DNA from: Acidobacteriota bacterium | GTDB lineage: Bacteria > Acidobacteriota > Blastocatellia > Pyrinomonadales > Pyrinomonadaceae | Assembly: GCA_003222895.1 (NCBI GenBank) | Contig: QHXI01000062.1 | Coordinates: forward strand, 1-49,649 | Length of the DNA stretch: 49,649 nucleotides | Reading direction: 5' to 3' | In this document: one piece after another, positions 1-10,919 of the stretch | Layout of the letters: the number at the start of each line of letters is the position of its first letter | Numbering within the stretch: position 1 is the stretch's first letter | Translations under genes and position numbers: made by a program | Notes under the pieces: model-generated | Seen by the model: only the letters and a program-made list of their open reading frames with translations | Told to the model about the DNA's origin: nothing | Database searches by the model: none

Positions 1-390
1 CTGCTCGATTTACTAACCAAAGAATCGTCGGCGAAGATCAGCGGCATTGACGATCTCAGTTTGCCGGAAGTTACCGCGTTGGCATCGCGCGCGCGTCTGT
101 TCGTTGGAAACGACAGCGGCATCGCGCACATTGCGGCGGCGGTCGGTGCGCCCTGCGTCGTCATCTTCGGCTCGTCGAACGTCGTACACTGGCGGCCCTG
201 GACGACGAACGCGAACGAAGTTGTGCGCGAAGAGATGCCCTGCCAGCCCTGTCATGGTTACTTCTGCGGAGAGTTTGAAGAGCCTGAATGCATTCTGCGC
301 GTTCCGGTCGAACGCGTAGCCGCCGCGATCGATCGAATCCTGAAAGCTGGCCGTAACGACGTTCCATCTGAGCCTCTGAATTTCGCTTGA
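1..390 (+). CDS. Glycosyltransferase family 9 (heptosyltransferase), C-terminal part
   Basis: The reading frame is open from the first base, so the gene begins before the window; about 129 residues remain. The visible part carries the family hallmark LFVGNDSGIAHIAAAVGAP, the nucleotide-sugar-binding loop of ADP-heptose:LPS heptosyltransferases, followed by VIFG and a Trp-Pro segment. By family it adds heptose from an ADP-heptose donor to the inner core of lipopolysaccharide at the cytoplasmic face of the inner membrane. Its TGA stop overlaps the TTG start of the next gene (heptose-7-phosphate kinase), which makes ADP-heptose precursor, so the pair fits one LPS-core operon. The acceptor sugar cannot be told from this fragment. 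Confidence 0.85.
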   Translation: MLDLLTKESSAKISGIDDLSLPEVTALASRARLFVGNDSGIAHIAAAVGAPCVVIFGSSNVVHWRPWTTNANEVVREEMPCQPCHGYFCGEFEEPECILRVPVERVAAAIDRILKAGRNDVPSEPLNFA

Positions 391-1373
391 TTACTTTATC
401 CAAACAACGAGCCGAAGAGATTCTCAAGCGTGCACGCGATTCGCGCGTGGTCGTGCTGGGCGACGTGATGCTGGATGAATTTATTTGGGGCGATGTCAGC
501 CGCATCTCGCCGGAAGCGCCCGTTCCGGTCGTGAACATCAAACGCGAATCCACGCGGCTGGGCGGCGCAGCCAACGTCCTCGCGAATGTTACGGCGCTGG
601 GCGCAAGCGCAAATGTCATCGGTGTGGTTGGTGAAGATGCCGCTGCCGGAAAACTTCGCGACGCCTTGCGCGCGAATGGCGGCGTGCAGACCGGCAACAC
701 TTTAGTCACAGACCACCAGCGACCGACGACGATCAAGACACGGATCATCGCGCACAATCAGATGGTCGTGCGCGCCGATCGCGAACATCGCGGGGCAGTG
801 AATGGTCAGGTTGAGGCTCAAATCATCGAGGTCGTCAAAAACACAATCGACGATGCGCACGTGCTGGTGATTTCTGATTATGACAAAGGTGTCATCACGC
901 CGCGCATTCTCTCCGAAGTCTTGCCGCTCGCTTATGATCGAATGCCGGTTCTGATCGATCCGAAGATGCGGAACTTTGATTCGTATCGGCCCGCGACTTT
1001 GGTGACGCCGAATCATCACGAGGCGTTGCGATTGACGAACCTCGAAGAAGATACCGATGATGGATTGCGCAGGGCCGCCGAAATCATTAAGGGTCGACTA
1101 GAGTGTGACGCGGTGCTGATCACCCGCGGCGAGCATGGCATGATGCTGTGCGAAGGCGACAGCGATCCTGTCGTGGTCGAAACCGCGGCGCGCGAAGTTT
1201 ATGACGTGACTGGCGCTGGTGATACAGTCATCGCGACGTTGGCCGCCGCATTGGCCGGCGGGGCATCGATGACCGAAGCCGCGGTGCTCGCGAATCACGC
1301 CGCGGGAATCGTCGTCGGAAAGCTCGGCACGGCGACCGCGAGTATCGAAGAGATTCTGAACTCAATCGGTTAG
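387..1373 (+). CDS. rfaE1: D-glycero-beta-D-manno-heptose-7-phosphate kinase
   Basis: PfkB-family sugar kinase of 328 residues, matching the kinase half of HldE; the nucleotidyltransferase half is absent, so this is the stand-alone RfaE1 form. It phosphorylates heptose 7-phosphate at C1 during ADP-heptose synthesis. Visible motifs: GDVMLDEFIWGDVSRISPEA near the N-terminus, LGGAANV, and the C-terminal ATP-binding and catalytic signature DVTGAGDTVIATLA. The start is TTG at 387, overlapping the upstream TGA in the string TTGA, so translation is probably coupled to the heptosyltransferase. The adenylyltransferase partner (RfaE2) is not in the window. Confidence 0.9.
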   Translation: MITLSKQRAEEILKRARDSRVVVLGDVMLDEFIWGDVSRISPEAPVPVVNIKRESTRLGGAANVLANVTALGASANVIGVVGEDAAAGKLRDALRANGGVQTGNTLVTDHQRPTTIKTRIIAHNQMVVRADREHRGAVNGQVEAQIIEVVKNTIDDAHVLVISDYDKGVITPRILSEVLPLAYDRMPVLIDPKMRNFDSYRPATLVTPNHHEALRLTNLEEDTDDGLRRAAEIIKGRLECDAVLITRGEHGMMLCEGDSDPVVVETAAREVYDVTGAGDTVIATLAAALAGGASMTEAAVLANHAAGIVVGKLGTATASIEEILNSIG

Positions 1374-1464
1374 TTCTAGTGCGATAGCCGGTTGAATGCG
1401 CGCTCGCCGTTCGCTTGCTGAATCCCGGAGGGACGAACGGACTCTCGTTAACAAAGTTCGATTC

Positions 1465-3123
1465 ATGCTCCAACGAAAAACTAAACGACTTGTTGCGCAC
1501 GTACTGTTGGCTCTGTGCTTGTCCGCAGGACTAAACATCCAACAAGGCCTCGCGTTCGCTCAGGCGTCAGTTGTTACTTCCGGGAATGGACGCGCAACTC
1601 AGCCAGTCCGAAGCGGCCCCGCGACCCTTGCTGATTTACGAAATCGCATTGAAGAAATCGTCCGACAACCTGCGTTGGCGCCGGGTTTCTTCGCCGTAAA
1701 AATTGTTTCCCTCGATACGGGCCAGACGATCTTTGAGCAGGATGCGAACAAGTTTGTGCGGCCGGCTTCTAACATGAAGCTTTACACGGTGGCGACCGCA
1801 TACGATCGGCTGACGCCGGACTTTCATTTCATCACCTCGGTTTACGCGAACGAAAAACCGGATGACGGAAAGGTTAAAGGCGATTTGTTCGTCTACGGCC
1901 GCGGCGATCCTTCGATTGCGGCGCGCTTCAATAACGGCGATTACTTCAAAGGCATAAACGATCTCGCCGATAGGATCGTCGCTGCTGGAGTAAAACGCAT
2001 TAAAGGCGATCTCGTCGGCGATGAAAGTTATTTCAACGGCGCGCCGCTGGGCAGCGGCTGGGAATGGGAAGACTTGACCTGGTCGTATGGTGCGCAAATC
2101 AGCGCGCTATCGATTAATGACAACGCGATCGATTTAAACGTGAAGCCTGGCGACAAAATCGGCGGGCCCGTGGTTTTCACAACTGGGCCCCCTTCGGCCT
2201 CGTTCATGACGATCATCAATCGCGCCACAACTTCCACGCGCGGAGCGAAAAGCGATCTGCGAATCTATCGCGGCCTCGGAGCGAACACGCTCGAATTGTC
2301 CGGAAGTCTGCCGATTGGTGGCGCGGGTTTCATCGGCGGCGTTGCGATCCCCGATCCAGCATTGGCCTTCGTTTCGATGTTGCGCGAGGCGTTAACGAAG
2401 CGGGGCGTAAAGATTGAAGGCCGAGTTCGCACCGTGAATGCGCGTTCGGGCAGTTCTGTGATGCCAAGAACTGCGCCGGGATTCGGCAGCGGATCGATGG
2501 CCCAGTTTCCGGTTGAAATTGCCAGTTTGCAATCGCCGCCCTTCTCAGTCATCGCAACTCAAACTCTGAAGCCGAGTCAAAATCAATACACCGAACTAAT
2601 CCTGCGGACGCTTGGCCGAAACCCGCAGGTCCTGGATAGCACGGGCGAGTCGCGACCATTATCCGGCGACAGTCGAGGCGCCAGAGATGATGAAGATGCC
2701 GGTCTCGAATCGGTGAGAAATTTTCTGCGTCAGGCGGGCATCGGCGACAACGATGTCGCGCTCAACGACGGCTCGGGTCTGTCGCGCAACGATCTGATTT
2801 CAGCGAACACGACGGTCCAGTTGCTGACTTTCATGTCCAAGCATAAATACTTCGCGCAGTTCCGCGATGCGCTGCCGATTGCCGGAGTGGACGGCACTTT
2901 GCGCACGCGCATGCGTGGCACTCCTGCCGAAGGTAATCTGCGTGCAAAGACCGGTTCCCTCAGCTCGGTTGCCTCGTTGTCCGGTTACGTCACGACGGCC
3001 GCCGGCGAGCATCTCGTCTTCTCGATGATGCTCAATAATTATCCCGACGCAGCCGCCGTGCGCCGCGATTCAATCGACGCGATCGCAGTCTTGCTGGCCT
3101 CGTTTGCTGGCAAGACGCAATAA
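1465..3123 (+). CDS. dacB: D-alanyl-D-alanine carboxypeptidase/endopeptidase (PBP4, S13)
   Basis: Periplasmic penicillin-binding protein of the S13 family, which trims D-Ala from peptidoglycan stem peptides and cuts cross-links. All three penicillin-binding motifs are present: SNMK (SxxK) in RPASNMKLYTVATAYDRL, SRN (SxN) in NDGSGLSRNDL, and KTG in LRAKTGSLSSV near the C-terminus. The frame could open at 1396, but ATG 1465 places a clean signal peptide (LVAHVLLALCLSAGL, ending near AFAQA) at the N-terminus and is preferred; neither start has a strong ribosome site. Length (552 residues) is a little above the usual 450-500. Between the SxxK and SxN motifs lies the family's extra domain. Confidence 0.88.
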   Translation: MLQRKTKRLVAHVLLALCLSAGLNIQQGLAFAQASVVTSGNGRATQPVRSGPATLADLRNRIEEIVRQPALAPGFFAVKIVSLDTGQTIFEQDANKFVRPASNMKLYTVATAYDRLTPDFHFITSVYANEKPDDGKVKGDLFVYGRGDPSIAARFNNGDYFKGINDLADRIVAAGVKRIKGDLVGDESYFNGAPLGSGWEWEDLTWSYGAQISALSINDNAIDLNVKPGDKIGGPVVFTTGPPSASFMTIINRATTSTRGAKSDLRIYRGLGANTLELSGSLPIGGAGFIGGVAIPDPALAFVSMLREALTKRGVKIEGRVRTVNARSGSSVMPRTAPGFGSGSMAQFPVEIASLQSPPFSVIATQTLKPSQNQYTELILRTLGRNPQVLDSTGESRPLSGDSRGARDDEDAGLESVRNFLRQAGIGDNDVALNDGSGLSRNDLISANTTVQLLTFMSKHKYFAQFRDALPIAGVDGTLRTRMRGTPAEGNLRAKTGSLSSVASLSGYVTTAAGEHLVFSMMLNNYPDAAAVRRDSIDAIAVLLASFAGKTQ

Positions 3124-4291: not shown

Positions 4292-5143
4292 ATGTCTGCA
4301 CGTTTCACAAAATTCCAGGGCTTTGGCAACGACTACATCGTTTTTGAAGCCGACCAACTCTCGCACCTAAACGACCTCGGCCAATTTGCGCGCCGCATTT
4401 GTAATCGTCACTACGGTGCAGGCGCAGATGGAATTGCGATCGCTCAGCGCTCGGCCGACGCTGATTCAGATTTCCGCGTTCGCATCTTCAATCCCGACGG
4501 CAGTGAAGCGGGCATGTCTGGGAACGGCACGCGCTGCGCGGCGTCCTATCTGTTTTTCCACGGTCTTTGGTCCAGTGATGAACTCAAGCTGCAAACGCGC
4601 AACGGCATCAAGCGCTATCACCTTCTCGAACGCTCTGGCGGATCGTTCTTATTTCGATCTGAGTTGGGCCAACCAAAGTTCGACAACGCCTCGATTCCGA
4701 TGTCCGTGGACGCGCCGCTCGAACGCGTGATCGATTACCGGCTAAACGTTGACGGCGAAACTCTGAAAGTGACGGCGCTGCAAATGGGAAATCCGAACTG
4801 CTGCATCTTTGTCGATGATTTTGAGGCGATCGACTGGCGGCGTCTGGGACCGCTGATCGAAAATCATCCGCAGTTTCCTGAACGCACGAACGTAATTTTC
4901 ATTCGCATCGTGGATCGAGAAAACATCGAAGAGCGAATCTGGGAACGCGGCGTCGGCGAAACTGAAAGTTCAGGCACTTGCTCGTGCGCGGCTGTTGTCG
5001 CCTCAGTCATCAACGGCCAAACCGATCGCGTGGTGAACGTGCACGCGCCGGGCGGTTTGATTCCCATCGAGTGGCGGGCTGATGACCAGGTTGTATTGAC
5101 AGGAACGGCCGGCGTCGTGTACAGCGGTGAGTGGCCGGAGTAA
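4292..5143 (+). CDS. dapF: DapF-family epimerase with both catalytic cysteines replaced by serine
   Basis: A 283-residue protein with the full two-lobed diaminopimelate epimerase pattern: FTKFQGFGNDYIVFE at the N-terminus, FNPDGSEAGMSGNGTRC around residues 67-82, MGNPNCCIFVDD near 165-176, and ERGVGETESSGTCSC near 218-232. DapF converts LL- to meso-diaminopimelate for lysine and peptidoglycan synthesis, using two cysteines as acid/base. In the family signature the first is the Cys of CGNG and the second the Cys of ACGxG; here these positions are Ser76 and Ser228. Cysteines at 82, 230 and 232 are nearby but not at the expected places. It may be a divergent subfamily, a different epimerase or a weakened enzyme. 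The AraC-type gene follows immediately. Confidence 0.82.
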   Translation: MSARFTKFQGFGNDYIVFEADQLSHLNDLGQFARRICNRHYGAGADGIAIAQRSADADSDFRVRIFNPDGSEAGMSGNGTRCAASYLFFHGLWSSDELKLQTRNGIKRYHLLERSGGSFLFRSELGQPKFDNASIPMSVDAPLERVIDYRLNVDGETLKVTALQMGNPNCCIFVDDFEAIDWRRLGPLIENHPQFPERTNVIFIRIVDRENIEERIWERGVGETESSGTCSCAAVVASVINGQTDRVVNVHAPGGLIPIEWRADDQVVLTGTAGVVYSGEWPE

Positions 5144-8668: not shown

Positions 8669-9439
8669 ATGGCCGTAAATCTGGAAGGTGGTTGTCGAGT
8701 TTCTGCCGTGCGCGAAGGCGCGCCCGTAGAGGCAGGAACGCTGCGCATTTGGCATCGCATCGGCCGCGCCACCGGCGCGCAGGCAATCTCTTTGCGCGTG
8801 CTGGAATTCGCCCCGGGAATCTCGCCGTCAATGCGTAATGATGAATGCGACGAGATTCTGTACGTGCTGGAGCGCCGCGGGCGACAAACGGCGACGATTC
8901 AAATAGATCGACACGGCTACGATATCGGCTCCGACACCGGCATCTACATTCGCCCAAACGAAATATTTGCGATCGATAATCCCGGTCCGAATTCAGTCAT
9001 CATTATCAGCGCTCAATGTCCTGATCCTGATCGAGCGCCGTTATTTGTGGCGCCTCTCACGATTTCATCCGATGCGCCACAATTAGATCGACCGCCGCTG
9101 GTCCGTCTCTCTGATCAGCGCGCGCAGCCAACCGCGGATCGTTGGTATCGCGTGCTGGTCGATCAAGCAATCGGCAGTGCGCAAGTCACACAATTCGTCG
9201 GCTCGATTCCGCCCGGTCGCGCGCCCGATCATTTTCACAACTACGAAGAGGTGCTTTTCATTTTGAAAGGCGCAGGCCGCATGTGGGCCGGCGAAACGAA
9301 CACGCCGATAGGTGTAGGCTCATGTATTTATCTGCCAAAAGGACAGGTGCATTGCGTAGAGAATACGGGCGAAGGCGAGTTGCGTTTGCTGGGCGTGTTC
9401 TATCCGGCGGGAAGTCCGAGCGTAAGATATGATGCTTGA
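8669..9439 (+). CDS. Two-cupin-domain protein
   Basis: A 256-residue bicupin. The N-terminal cupin (roughly 25-120) contains DEILYVLERRGR and IYIRPNEIFAIDNPG; the C-terminal cupin (roughly 140-250) has the metal-binding pattern PDHFHNYEEVLFILKGAGRM, then IYLPKGQVHCVENTG, with histidines and a glutamate in the usual places. The N-terminal domain lacks the His pair (RNDECDEIL), so probably only the second domain binds metal. Family members include dioxygenases, isomerases and sugar-binding proteins; the substrate is unknown. No operon partner is obvious. Confidence 0.82.
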   Translation: MAVNLEGGCRVSAVREGAPVEAGTLRIWHRIGRATGAQAISLRVLEFAPGISPSMRNDECDEILYVLERRGRQTATIQIDRHGYDIGSDTGIYIRPNEIFAIDNPGPNSVIIISAQCPDPDRAPLFVAPLTISSDAPQLDRPPLVRLSDQRAQPTADRWYRVLVDQAIGSAQVTQFVGSIPPGRAPDHFHNYEEVLFILKGAGRMWAGETNTPIGVGSCIYLPKGQVHCVENTGEGELRLLGVFYPAGSPSVRYDA

Positions 9440-9463
9440 TAAAGGAAGAATCTTTTTTCATCA

Positions 9464-9480
9464 ATAACTTCTGTTATATT
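9464..9480 (+). promoter_or_regulatory. Possible promoter/operator for a leaderless DUF433-methyltransferase mRNA
   Basis: The sequence ATAAC-TTCT-GTTAT is a short dyad (9464-9477) that overlaps a -10-like TATATT (9475-9480). The ATG at 9487 sits just where transcription from that box would begin, and there is no ribosome-binding site before it, suggesting a leaderless transcript. A -35 box is not clear. If the DUF433 domain binds DNA as antitoxins do, this dyad is a candidate autoregulatory operator. All of this is inference from spacing. Confidence 0.35.
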
Positions 9481-9486
9481 AACGCC

Positions 9487-10416
9487 ATGAAAACTGATGA
9501 ATTGCGCGGGGTAGTTCATTCCGATCCTCAGGTCATGGGGGGAACGCCGGTGTTTGTAGGTACGCGCGTTCCGCTCGAAAACCTTATTGACTACCTCGAA
9601 GGCGGAGAATCAGTCGATGATTTCCTGGAAGCTTTTCCTACGGTGAAGCGTGAACAGGTGATTGCCGCAATGAATGACCAACAAGAGGAGAGCGATTCTC
9701 TCGCGACGTTCCGAACGAAACCGAAGCCGCAGGAAAAACGTAAGGTCAAAAACGGTAAACCGTCGAACGAACTAGTCCTCAGCGCATATATCGAAGGAAA
9801 TGATAGCGTCTTTCCCCGCATTCTCGGGTTATATGTAAAACCGGGCAGCGTGATCGCCGATGTCACGTATGGAAAGGGCGTCTTTTGGAGAACTATTCCC
9901 GACGGTGAATATCAAATAAGAGCCACGGACCTTCAAAATGGTGTGGACTGTCGCGACCTTCCGTACAAGAACGGCGAACTTGATTGTGTCGTCTTTGACC
10001 CTCCCTATATGCACACCCCCGGCGGTTCCGCTCACACCGTCCACAATCAGTTTGAAGACCACTATCGGAACAACGGCACAGGAAACCGAACCAATAGCAA
10101 GTACCACGAGGCGGTCCTTGAGCTATATATCGATGGCGGGAAAGAAGCGCATCGCGTCCTCCGCAATCGAGGCGTCTTTATCGTAAAGTGCCAAGATGAA
10201 GTATGTGCAAATCGGCAACGATTTACGCACGTGGAGATAATGGCGGCATACGAGAAGATAGGATTTGTTCCGGAGGACCTTTTCGTAATCGTTCGCAACA
10301 ATCGCCCTGGCGTTAGCCGTGTAGTTCAGCAAGTTCATGCTCGCAAGAATCATTCCTATTTTTTGGTGTTTTGGAAGTCGGATAGCGAAAAAGAACGATG
10401 GCAGCCTCCCCAATAG
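9487..10416 (+). CDS. DUF433 domain fused to a DNA methyltransferase
   Basis: A 309-residue protein from ATG 9487. Residues 1-65 are a DUF433 domain (VMGGTPVFVGTRVPLENLID, then the EAFPTVKREQVIAAM helix), normally a free-standing VapB-like antitoxin of about 75 residues paired with a PIN-like toxin. A basic linker (residues 72-95) leads to a Rossmann methyltransferase: SAM motif I near IADVTYGKGVFW (122-134) and catalytic DPPY at 171-174, so an adenine-N6 or cytosine-N4 amino-methyltransferase. The next gene, a PD-(D/E)XK nuclease, overlaps its end by 19 bases, so the two form a restriction-modification unit. The DUF433 part could act as a built-in repressor or a target-recognition aid; an internal ATG at 9670 has no ribosome site. 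Confidence 0.85.
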   Translation: MKTDELRGVVHSDPQVMGGTPVFVGTRVPLENLIDYLEGGESVDDFLEAFPTVKREQVIAAMNDQQEESDSLATFRTKPKPQEKRKVKNGKPSNELVLSAYIEGNDSVFPRILGLYVKPGSVIADVTYGKGVFWRTIPDGEYQIRATDLQNGVDCRDLPYKNGELDCVVFDPPYMHTPGGSAHTVHNQFEDHYRNNGTGNRTNSKYHEAVLELYIDGGKEAHRVLRNRGVFIVKCQDEVCANRQRFTHVEIMAAYEKIGFVPEDLFVIVRNNRPGVSRVVQQVHARKNHSYFLVFWKSDSEKERWQPPQ

Positions 10417-10919
10417 ATCCGATTAAATTGATGATACATATCATCAAGACCCATGCGCCCGAGAATATCTGGCTGGAGTCACCCCTTCAAGGCTATCGAG
10501 GTCTTGGGAATACGAATAGAGGGGAAATTGGCGAAGAGTTCATTCGCCAGTATCTCAAAGCCGCGGGTCTTGAAATCAGCAACGGCAAGCGAACCTCGAT
10601 CACGGACGTGAAGATTGGGGGCCACCCTTTCGAGATCAAGACCGCATCACTAGGTGCTAACGGCACGTTTCAGTTTAACCACGTGCGGTTGGATCGGAAT
10701 TACGAATATCTGCTCTGTCTGGGAATCTGTCCGCAGGAGATCGTCTACAATATGTGGCGTAAAGGCGATGTCGCTGAAGGCAAAGCGGGAAAGCTTGTAC
10801 GCATGGCGGAAGGGCAAGCCGTGACGTGGAAACTCACCAAGCAACTCTCAACCATGATACCGATCGAAGACTTGCCGGACAATCTTCGCATCACCCTCGA
10901 TCTACCTAAGCTGACATAA
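10398..10919 (+). CDS. Probable type II restriction endonuclease, PD-(D/E)XK fold
   Basis: A 173-residue protein overlapping the methyltransferase by 19 bases. I do not recognise a named family. The order EIGEEFIRQYL (43-53), TDVKIGGHPFEIKTAS (69-84) gives candidate catalytic residues E46/E47, D70, E79 and K81, the D-(x)n-ExK arrangement of PD-(D/E)XK nucleases. FQFNHVRLDRNYEYLLCLGI after it is the usual hydrophobic core. Its size and position next to a DNA methyltransferase are typical of a type II restriction enzyme. Overlap suggests coupled translation after the methyltransferase. Recognition sequence is unknown. It ends two bases from the convergent PLP-enzyme gene. Confidence 0.75.
   Translation: MAASPIDPIKLMIHIIKTHAPENIWLESPLQGYRGLGNTNRGEIGEEFIRQYLKAAGLEISNGKRTSITDVKIGGHPFEIKTASLGANGTFQFNHVRLDRNYEYLLCLGICPQEIVYNMWRKGDVAEGKAGKLVRMAEGQAVTWKLTKQLSTMIPIEDLPDNLRITLDLPKLT

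Follow-up and report, generated by a model that had tools for sequence, protein, structure and literature searches.

Diaminopimelate (DAP) epimerase, DapF, is described together with its relatives as using two cysteines as acid and base, and it is a model case of a thiolate with pKa ~8.5 taking a proton of pKa ~29 (excerpted text of PMC12039745); it has also been proposed as a drug target (PMC5296763, in excerpt). The first catalytic cysteine is part of the DapF signature, printed as N-x-(DN)-(GS)-(SENGFT)-x(4)-C-(GI)-N-(GA)-x-R in the available section of PMC8225329. Other residue pairs are described for the proline racemase superfamily in the portions of PMC4113996 available to us: the 4-hydroxyproline epimerase B9JQV3 is given as Ser93/Cys236 (another passage prints Cys255), the trans-3-hydroxyproline dehydratase B9K4G4 has a Ser/Thr pair, and the authors note clusters without one or both cysteines. 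Here we describe a DapF homologue that has serine at both catalytic positions, encoded in a 49,649 nucleotide stretch of an Acidobacteriota genome (contig QHXI01000062.1, positions 1 to 49,649; hereafter the window). Judged by sequence comparison, it belongs to a real, widespread and repeatedly evolved double-serine variant of DapF. Among the matches listed, the accessible parts of the literature on cysteine-changed or Acidobacteria DapF do not name a natural Ser/Ser DapF, which is weak evidence of absence.

The gene and the two serine codons lie on the forward strand of the window:

4292-5143 (+): Ser/Ser DapF homologue, 283 amino acids (TIGR00652 227.6 bits, AlphaFold2 model, structural match 9mro)
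4517-4519 (+): codon TCT of Ser76, which replaces Cys73 in the alignment with E. coli and Pasteurella DapF
4970-4972 (+): codon TCA of Ser227, which replaces Cys217 in the same alignment

The open reading frame (ORF) starts with ATG and is uninterrupted by stops. The TIGR00652 (DapF) profile covers residues 4-280 at about twice its cut-off of 114.65 bits, and PF01678 (DAP_epimerase) matches with 181.6 bits (cut-off 34.7). The only other Pfam match at E <= 0.001 is PhzC-PhzF (PF02567), at 30.1 bits just above its cut-off of 27 and far below the score for DAP_epimerase; an identity as PhzF was rejected on this basis, and no match placed the protein in the proline racemase family. The signature stretch, NPDGSEAGMSGNGTR, fits the DapF pattern everywhere except at the cysteine, and Ser227 occupies the place of the second catalytic cysteine. 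As the cysteine part of the family definition is absent, we call the protein a serine-type variant, most likely with the function of DapF, and not a proven DapF. An earlier note on this DNA had claimed that both catalytic cysteines were changed to serine, and the alignment bears this out, although its number for the second serine, Ser228, was one too high (residue 228 is Gly). The same note held that the substrate-binding motifs were kept. Seven residues of the E. coli and Pasteurella enzymes are unchanged, namely N11, N64, N75, N157, N190, E208 and R209 (N13, N67, N78, N167, N200, E218 and R219 in the window protein), and all of these except N75 are DAP-binding residues. Two positions differ, Q44 being G47 and H159 being N169 in the window protein.

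Serine codons at both sites (TCT and TCA) mean that neither a reassigned cysteine codon nor a frame slip accounts for the change. A sequence artefact was ruled out: serine is encoded by TCN or AGC among the relatives (TCN in 107 and AGC in 14 of 121 at Ser76, TCN in 121/121 at Ser227), and independent genomes show the same state. We likewise ruled out that cysteines had shifted into place, which the earlier note had named as a way in which its claim could fail: C82 is also Cys in 15/15 Cys/Cys relatives, and position 230 is Cys in just 21 of 79 Ser/Ser relatives.

The window protein as modelled by AlphaFold2 from 46 aligned relatives (mean predicted local distance difference test score 97.2) has the DapF fold. 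The top solved structure is Anabaena DapF with a bound inhibitor (9mro, Z 40.2, root-mean-square deviation 1.6, 272 residues), and Arabidopsis DapF with aziDAP (3ejx) matches at Z 38.8. Ser76 and Ser227 immediately precede helices 77-89 and 228-240 of the model.

TIGR00652 found matches in 376 of the 396 Acidobacteriota genomes searched, and 172 genomes were typed at the two positions; these were the genomes with higher scores, supplemented by selected members of lower-scoring families, a non-random sample whose type proportions are therefore not estimates for the phylum. The 188 aligned rows (187 relatives and the window protein) comprised 122 Ser/Ser, 60 Cys/Cys and four Cys/Ser, with the first site unreadable in two. 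Both positions of the readable rows hold Ser or Cys exclusively, and the combination Ser/Cys was found in none of the 188 rows or 172 typed genomes. Counted by genome, 107 had only Ser/Ser, 52 only Cys/Cys, seven both types and four Cys/Ser, with two unresolved; counted by family code (n = 82), 42 had only Ser/Ser, 29 only Cys/Cys, five both and four Cys/Ser, and two had an unresolved row. "Only" here refers to the loci fetched, most TIGR00652 search rows giving one match per genome. Five of the seven genomes with both types belong to family f28, which has a divergent Cys/Cys copy alongside a RIF-type Ser/Ser DapF with the motif SGNGLRI or SGDGLRI (loci L118-L122, L181, L182 and L190-L192); the other two belong to f53, and in one of them (G162) the match to the Cys/Cys copy contains an in-frame TGA. 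Within the genus of the window's organism, G025 (100% complete) and G383 each gave a single match, of Ser/Ser type. Beyond the phylum, 7/7 plasmid DapFs and one alphaproteobacterial locus were Cys/Cys. The state is not an oddity of one organism: the alignment to relatives and other phyla that the earlier note had proposed finds Ser/Ser widespread in the phylum, and with 122 of 188 rows sharing it the double serine is, on this alignment, more than chance. As a side observation, typing by motif of four IMG/VR contigs gave one Ser/Ser, two Cys/Ser and one Cys/Cys; three DapF genes on viral-classed contigs (L243, L244 and L245) account for the two Cys/Ser and the Ser/Ser.

The variant is held under purifying selection. 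An initial comparison covered 79 Ser/Ser and 15 Cys/Cys relatives: both serines were present in 79/79 of the sequences grouped as Ser/Ser, and the surrounding residues were as constant as in the cysteine enzymes. Across the 122 Ser/Ser rows, N67, N200 and E218 are present in all, N13 and R219 in 121, N167 in 120 and N78 in 117; E218 is also Glu in 60/60 Cys/Cys rows. Ratios of nonsynonymous to synonymous substitution (dN/dS) were 0.065-0.121 in seven close pairs, values that are rough because synonymous divergence (dS 1.3-2.2) is saturated. With the constant serines, the kept pocket and the deep divergence, these ratios agree with the earlier note's suggestion of a distinct subfamily under selection rather than decay. 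A change at the H159 position as a partner of the serines was considered and rejected as inconsistent, His being found there in 77 of the 122 Ser/Ser rows. At the N157 position, Val is found in 40/60 Cys/Cys rows and Asn in 120/122 Ser/Ser rows, so here the serine enzymes resemble E. coli DapF more than do most cysteine enzymes of the phylum.

A tree of 159 rows was built without the two catalytic columns, and rows were excluded if they filled fewer than 200 columns of the query, were gapped at one or both sites or exceeded 72% identity to a kept row; fragments were dropped. On this tree the Ser/Ser rows form three groups, namely the clade of the window protein (92 rows; Shimodaira-Hasegawa-like approximate likelihood ratio test 94), the RIF-type group (5 rows; 99) and the pair L140 and L146 (100), which sits inside a set of Cys-type sequences. 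The minimum number of changes is three at the first site and five at the second. Approximately unbiased (AU) tests were run on a 43-row subset chosen after the larger tree was seen. A single clade of all Ser/Ser rows was rejected (p-AU 0.0045), as was a clade of the main group with L140/L146 (p-AU 0.0023), a grouping named after the tree was seen; a clade of the main group with the RIF-type rows was not rejected (p-AU 0.73). With Cys/Cys as the ancestral state, rejection of the single clade implies at least two origins. The tree itself is without direction; that Cys/Cys came first is indicated by the seven Cys/Cys DapFs of other phyla and agrees with the general view of DapF, and on that condition these comparisons indicate that the double serine evolved at least twice. 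In the subset tree, two of the four Cys/Ser rows adjoin L140/L146, with weak branch support.

A gene set leading to LL-DAP, the proposed substrate of this protein, is encoded in one cluster of the window's genome, on locus L213 (contig C125):

L213: aspartokinase (lysC), 482.4 bits on the lysine-sensitive model (cut-off 455)
L213: DapE/ArgE-like deacylase, below the cut-offs shown
L213: DapB, 131.4 bits (cut-off 122)
L213: DapA, 344.7 bits (cut-off 206.15)
L213: DapD, NF008808 310.2 bits (cut-off 204) and TIGR00965 197.6 bits (cut-off 375.4)
L213: aminotransferase, below the cut-offs shown
L213: Asd, 445.5 bits (cut-off 301.2)

The gap between dapB and dapA of this cluster (~7610-8062 of L213; G000:C125:13609-14062) holds a partial repeat in two pieces, one 90% similar to the beginning of dapA and the other 87% similar to the end of dapB, which looks like the remnant of a tandem duplication. 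No DAP dehydrogenase was matched in this genome, and a search for the plant-type LL-DAP aminotransferase gave six weaker aminotransferase matches, none above the cut-off, DapD being present instead. No second DapF/PF01678 locus was found besides the window gene in the assembly (96.4% complete), which agrees with the earlier note's premise of a single dapF. By annotation, the dap cluster, the single DapF and the lack of DAP dehydrogenase together mean that LL-DAP is made and that the window protein is the sole known route to meso-DAP. Downstream of that step, MurE scores 544.2 bits on the DAP-ligase equivalog (cut-off 373) with the DNPR motif present, and a LysA candidate of 479 amino acids (L102 1492-2931 (-); G000:C164) scores 323.4 bits against the LysA cut-off of 297.9. 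Its motif is CDSGD, in place of the CESGD usual in LysA.

Genes of the pathway also accompany the Ser/Ser type elsewhere in the phylum. DAP dehydrogenase gave only partial matches, in 2/396 genomes. Both of these, G085 and G196, belong to family f33; G196 has a Cys/Cys DapF, and that of G085 has Cys at the first site, its second site lying outside the alignment. G125, a single 7.5 Mb contig, gave one DapF match, of Ser/Ser type, and LysA at 445.4 bits; LysA of other Ser/Ser genomes, outside the class of the window's genome, scores 430-510 bits. MurE was detected in 26 of 28 genomes (missing in G007 and G057 at E 1e-60). Among genomes of the second origin, G057 (72% complete) has DapB at 143.7 bits and a partial DapD at 58% identity with no LysA or MurE match, and G001 has MurE with no LysA or DapB match.

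We lean, if only a little, towards the window protein being a working DAP epimerase that uses the serine pair Ser76/Ser227 instead of the cysteine pair. On this reading the protein, with its DapF fold and DAP pocket retained, would turn over LL-DAP, and the hydroxyls of Ser76 and Ser227, directly ahead of the two central helices, would be the acid and base of a two-base proton transfer at the alpha carbon. The natural Ser/Cys epimerase and Ser/Thr dehydratase of the same fold show that a hydroxyl can join alpha-proton transfer in this setting (PMC4113996, in the portions available). A serine pair in an epimerase would be the new step, and we infer it from genes alone. Freedom from disulfide formation may be the benefit of the serines, a speculation suggested by the redox sensitivity of one cysteine DapF (PMC5296763, in excerpt). 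Conservation of the DAP pocket, like the presence of the DAP gene cluster, points to an unchanged overall reaction that runs on a different acid/base pair; the different chemistry that the earlier note had suggested as one option is a possible alternative. That note had also concluded that the organism must either make meso-DAP otherwise or use the serines: no known candidate was found for the first, and the lack of a known alternative route favours the second. On the wider proposal, in which a thiol-free, two-serine, cofactor-independent epimerase had at least two origins from cysteine enzymes in one phylum, one perhaps via Cys/Ser, and is the sole meso-DAP source in its hosts, we would put even chances.

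Several points weigh against a working serine-type epimerase. In the accessible literature, cysteine members become slow or lose much of their catalysis when Cys is replaced by Ser; a functional serine pair would therefore depend on assistance from neighbouring residues, and E218 may be such a helper. The window dapF lies outside the dap cluster, the LysA candidate scores slightly higher on an ornithine/lysine decarboxylase model (332.2 bits, though under its cut-off of 700), and the 10 scanned proteins encoded next to Ser/Ser dapF genes include no lysine or DAP enzyme. Pathway genes are also patchy. When 22 genomes (18 Ser/Ser, 4 Cys/Ser) were searched with the DapB, DapD and DapA of the window's genome as a joint query, a one-family query that may miss divergent genes, DapB and/or DapD were matched in 7/18 Ser/Ser genomes, three (G001, G060 and G344) gave weak matches only (DapA-like at 27-30% identity, plus a short weak piece in G344), and eight (G096, G123, G165, G063, G120, G034, G129 and G248) gave none. 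TIGR00036 likewise found no DapB in G096, G123, G165, G120 and G001. G096, G123 and G165 probably belong to Chloracidobacterium, for which lysine auxotrophy is published: Chloracidobacterium validum is reported to require L-lysine and to lack lysine genes (PMC12816986, in excerpt). All three retain a Ser/Ser dapF, a LysA-like gene and a DNPR-type MurE without a dapA, dapB or dapD match, the LysA match of G096 reaching 405.7 bits. Finally, an unrecognised epimerase might make the meso-DAP.

This last point is taken up by the alternative that survives best, in which the Ser/Ser proteins have another substrate or reaction (a different amino acid, lanthionine, or dehydration with a single base) and a yet unrecognised epimerase supplies the meso-DAP. 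The eight Ser/Ser genomes without a match to the joint query still retain the protein, a predicted DapF of F. nucleatum is a histidine racemase in a host without the DAP pathway (PMC11602996, available text), and in the related superfamily the Ser/Thr enzyme catalyses a dehydration (PMC4113996, as above). We nevertheless regard this alternative as unlikely, given that the DAP-pocket residues are retained in nearly all 122 Ser/Ser rows, that DapB was detected in 17 of 22 Ser/Ser genomes (above cut-off in 14) and that in the window's own genome a dap cluster is present and no known alternative was found.

More doubtful still is that these organisms carry LL-DAP in their walls and that the protein epimerises slowly at most, enough for some lysine. 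LysA above cut-off is missing in 16/67 Ser/Ser genomes, and nothing more direct favours the proposal; the DAP stereochemistry of these bacteria was not found in the accessible literature among the matches listed. LysA was above cut-off in 54 of 80 genomes, including 51/67 Ser/Ser (3/9 Cys/Cys, 0/4 Cys/Ser), and the DNPR motif was present in 26/26 MurE read irrespective of whether DapF was Ser/Ser, Cys/Cys or Cys/Ser, although DNPR may not separate meso- from LL-DAP. Loss of catalysis, with the protein retained in a different role, for example as a binding partner, is suggested by the replacement of both known catalytic residues and by the binding of E. coli DapF to RppH (PMC4227774, in excerpt, and PDB titles), and is very improbable in view of the retained pocket, the double state having arisen at least twice and readable positions that hold Ser or Cys and never another residue.

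Two genes lie upstream of dapF in the window and are given as context only:

387-1373 (+): PfkB-family kinase (PF00294, 130 bits)
1396-3123 (+): D-Ala-D-Ala carboxypeptidase, Peptidase_S13 (PF02113, 337.5 bits)

A PfkB kinase is also directly upstream of a Ser/Ser dapF in L013, L030 and L040, and a Peptidase_S13 carboxypeptidase adjoins dapF in L041, of the same family; the 10 scanned neighbours include three PfkB kinases and three trypsin/PDZ proteases. Gene neighbours thus support neither side on a role in DAP synthesis. Elsewhere in the window, an ORF at 9436-10919 (+) fuses DUF433 (60.4 bits) with an N6/N4 DNA methylase domain (31.6 bits), and an ORF overlapping it matches type II restriction enzyme models (52.8 bits); the two are possibly a restriction-modification pair with an unusual DUF433 head.

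The double serine questions the textbook two-cysteine requirement of this cell-wall and lysine enzyme. If the serine pair works, a natural double-serine form across much of a phylum would mean that thiols are not essential to the DapF mechanism, the form would presumably be insensitive to thiol oxidation and alkylation, and naming by profile score would hide a change of both catalytic residues. If the protein does not epimerise DAP, the source of meso-DAP in these bacteria becomes an open question.

Compared with known systems, the window protein is closest to cysteine-type DapF (TIGR00652/PF01678), with which it shares a full-length profile match above cut-off, the fold, the pocket residues and a host gene set that needs DapF; it differs in having Ser at both catalytic cysteines and, with the other serine-type proteins, a variable H159 position (His in 77/122 Ser/Ser rows). 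The H. influenzae DapF mutants C73S and C217S (PDB 2q9h and 2q9j; Z 33.6 and 33.0) each carry one of its two serines, but they are laboratory mutants of a cysteine enzyme with a single serine each. Histidine racemases HisR and CntK have a DapF-like fold, and HisR had been annotated as DapF; in contrast to the window protein they have a cysteine pair, use histidine, share 12-14% identity and, for HisR, come from a host without the DAP pathway (available text of PMC11602996). In the proline racemase superfamily, whose structural matches share 12-15% identity with the model, 4lb0 (B9JQV3 by our reading of its PDB title) and 4k7g match at Z 26.6 and 27.3. B9JQV3 and B9K4G4 resemble the window protein in overall fold and in a natural Ser at the first cysteine position, in B9JQV3 within a two-base epimerase, and differ, as far as the accessible descriptions go, in having a single Ser with a Cys or Thr partner, proline-type substrates and 12-14% identity to the model.
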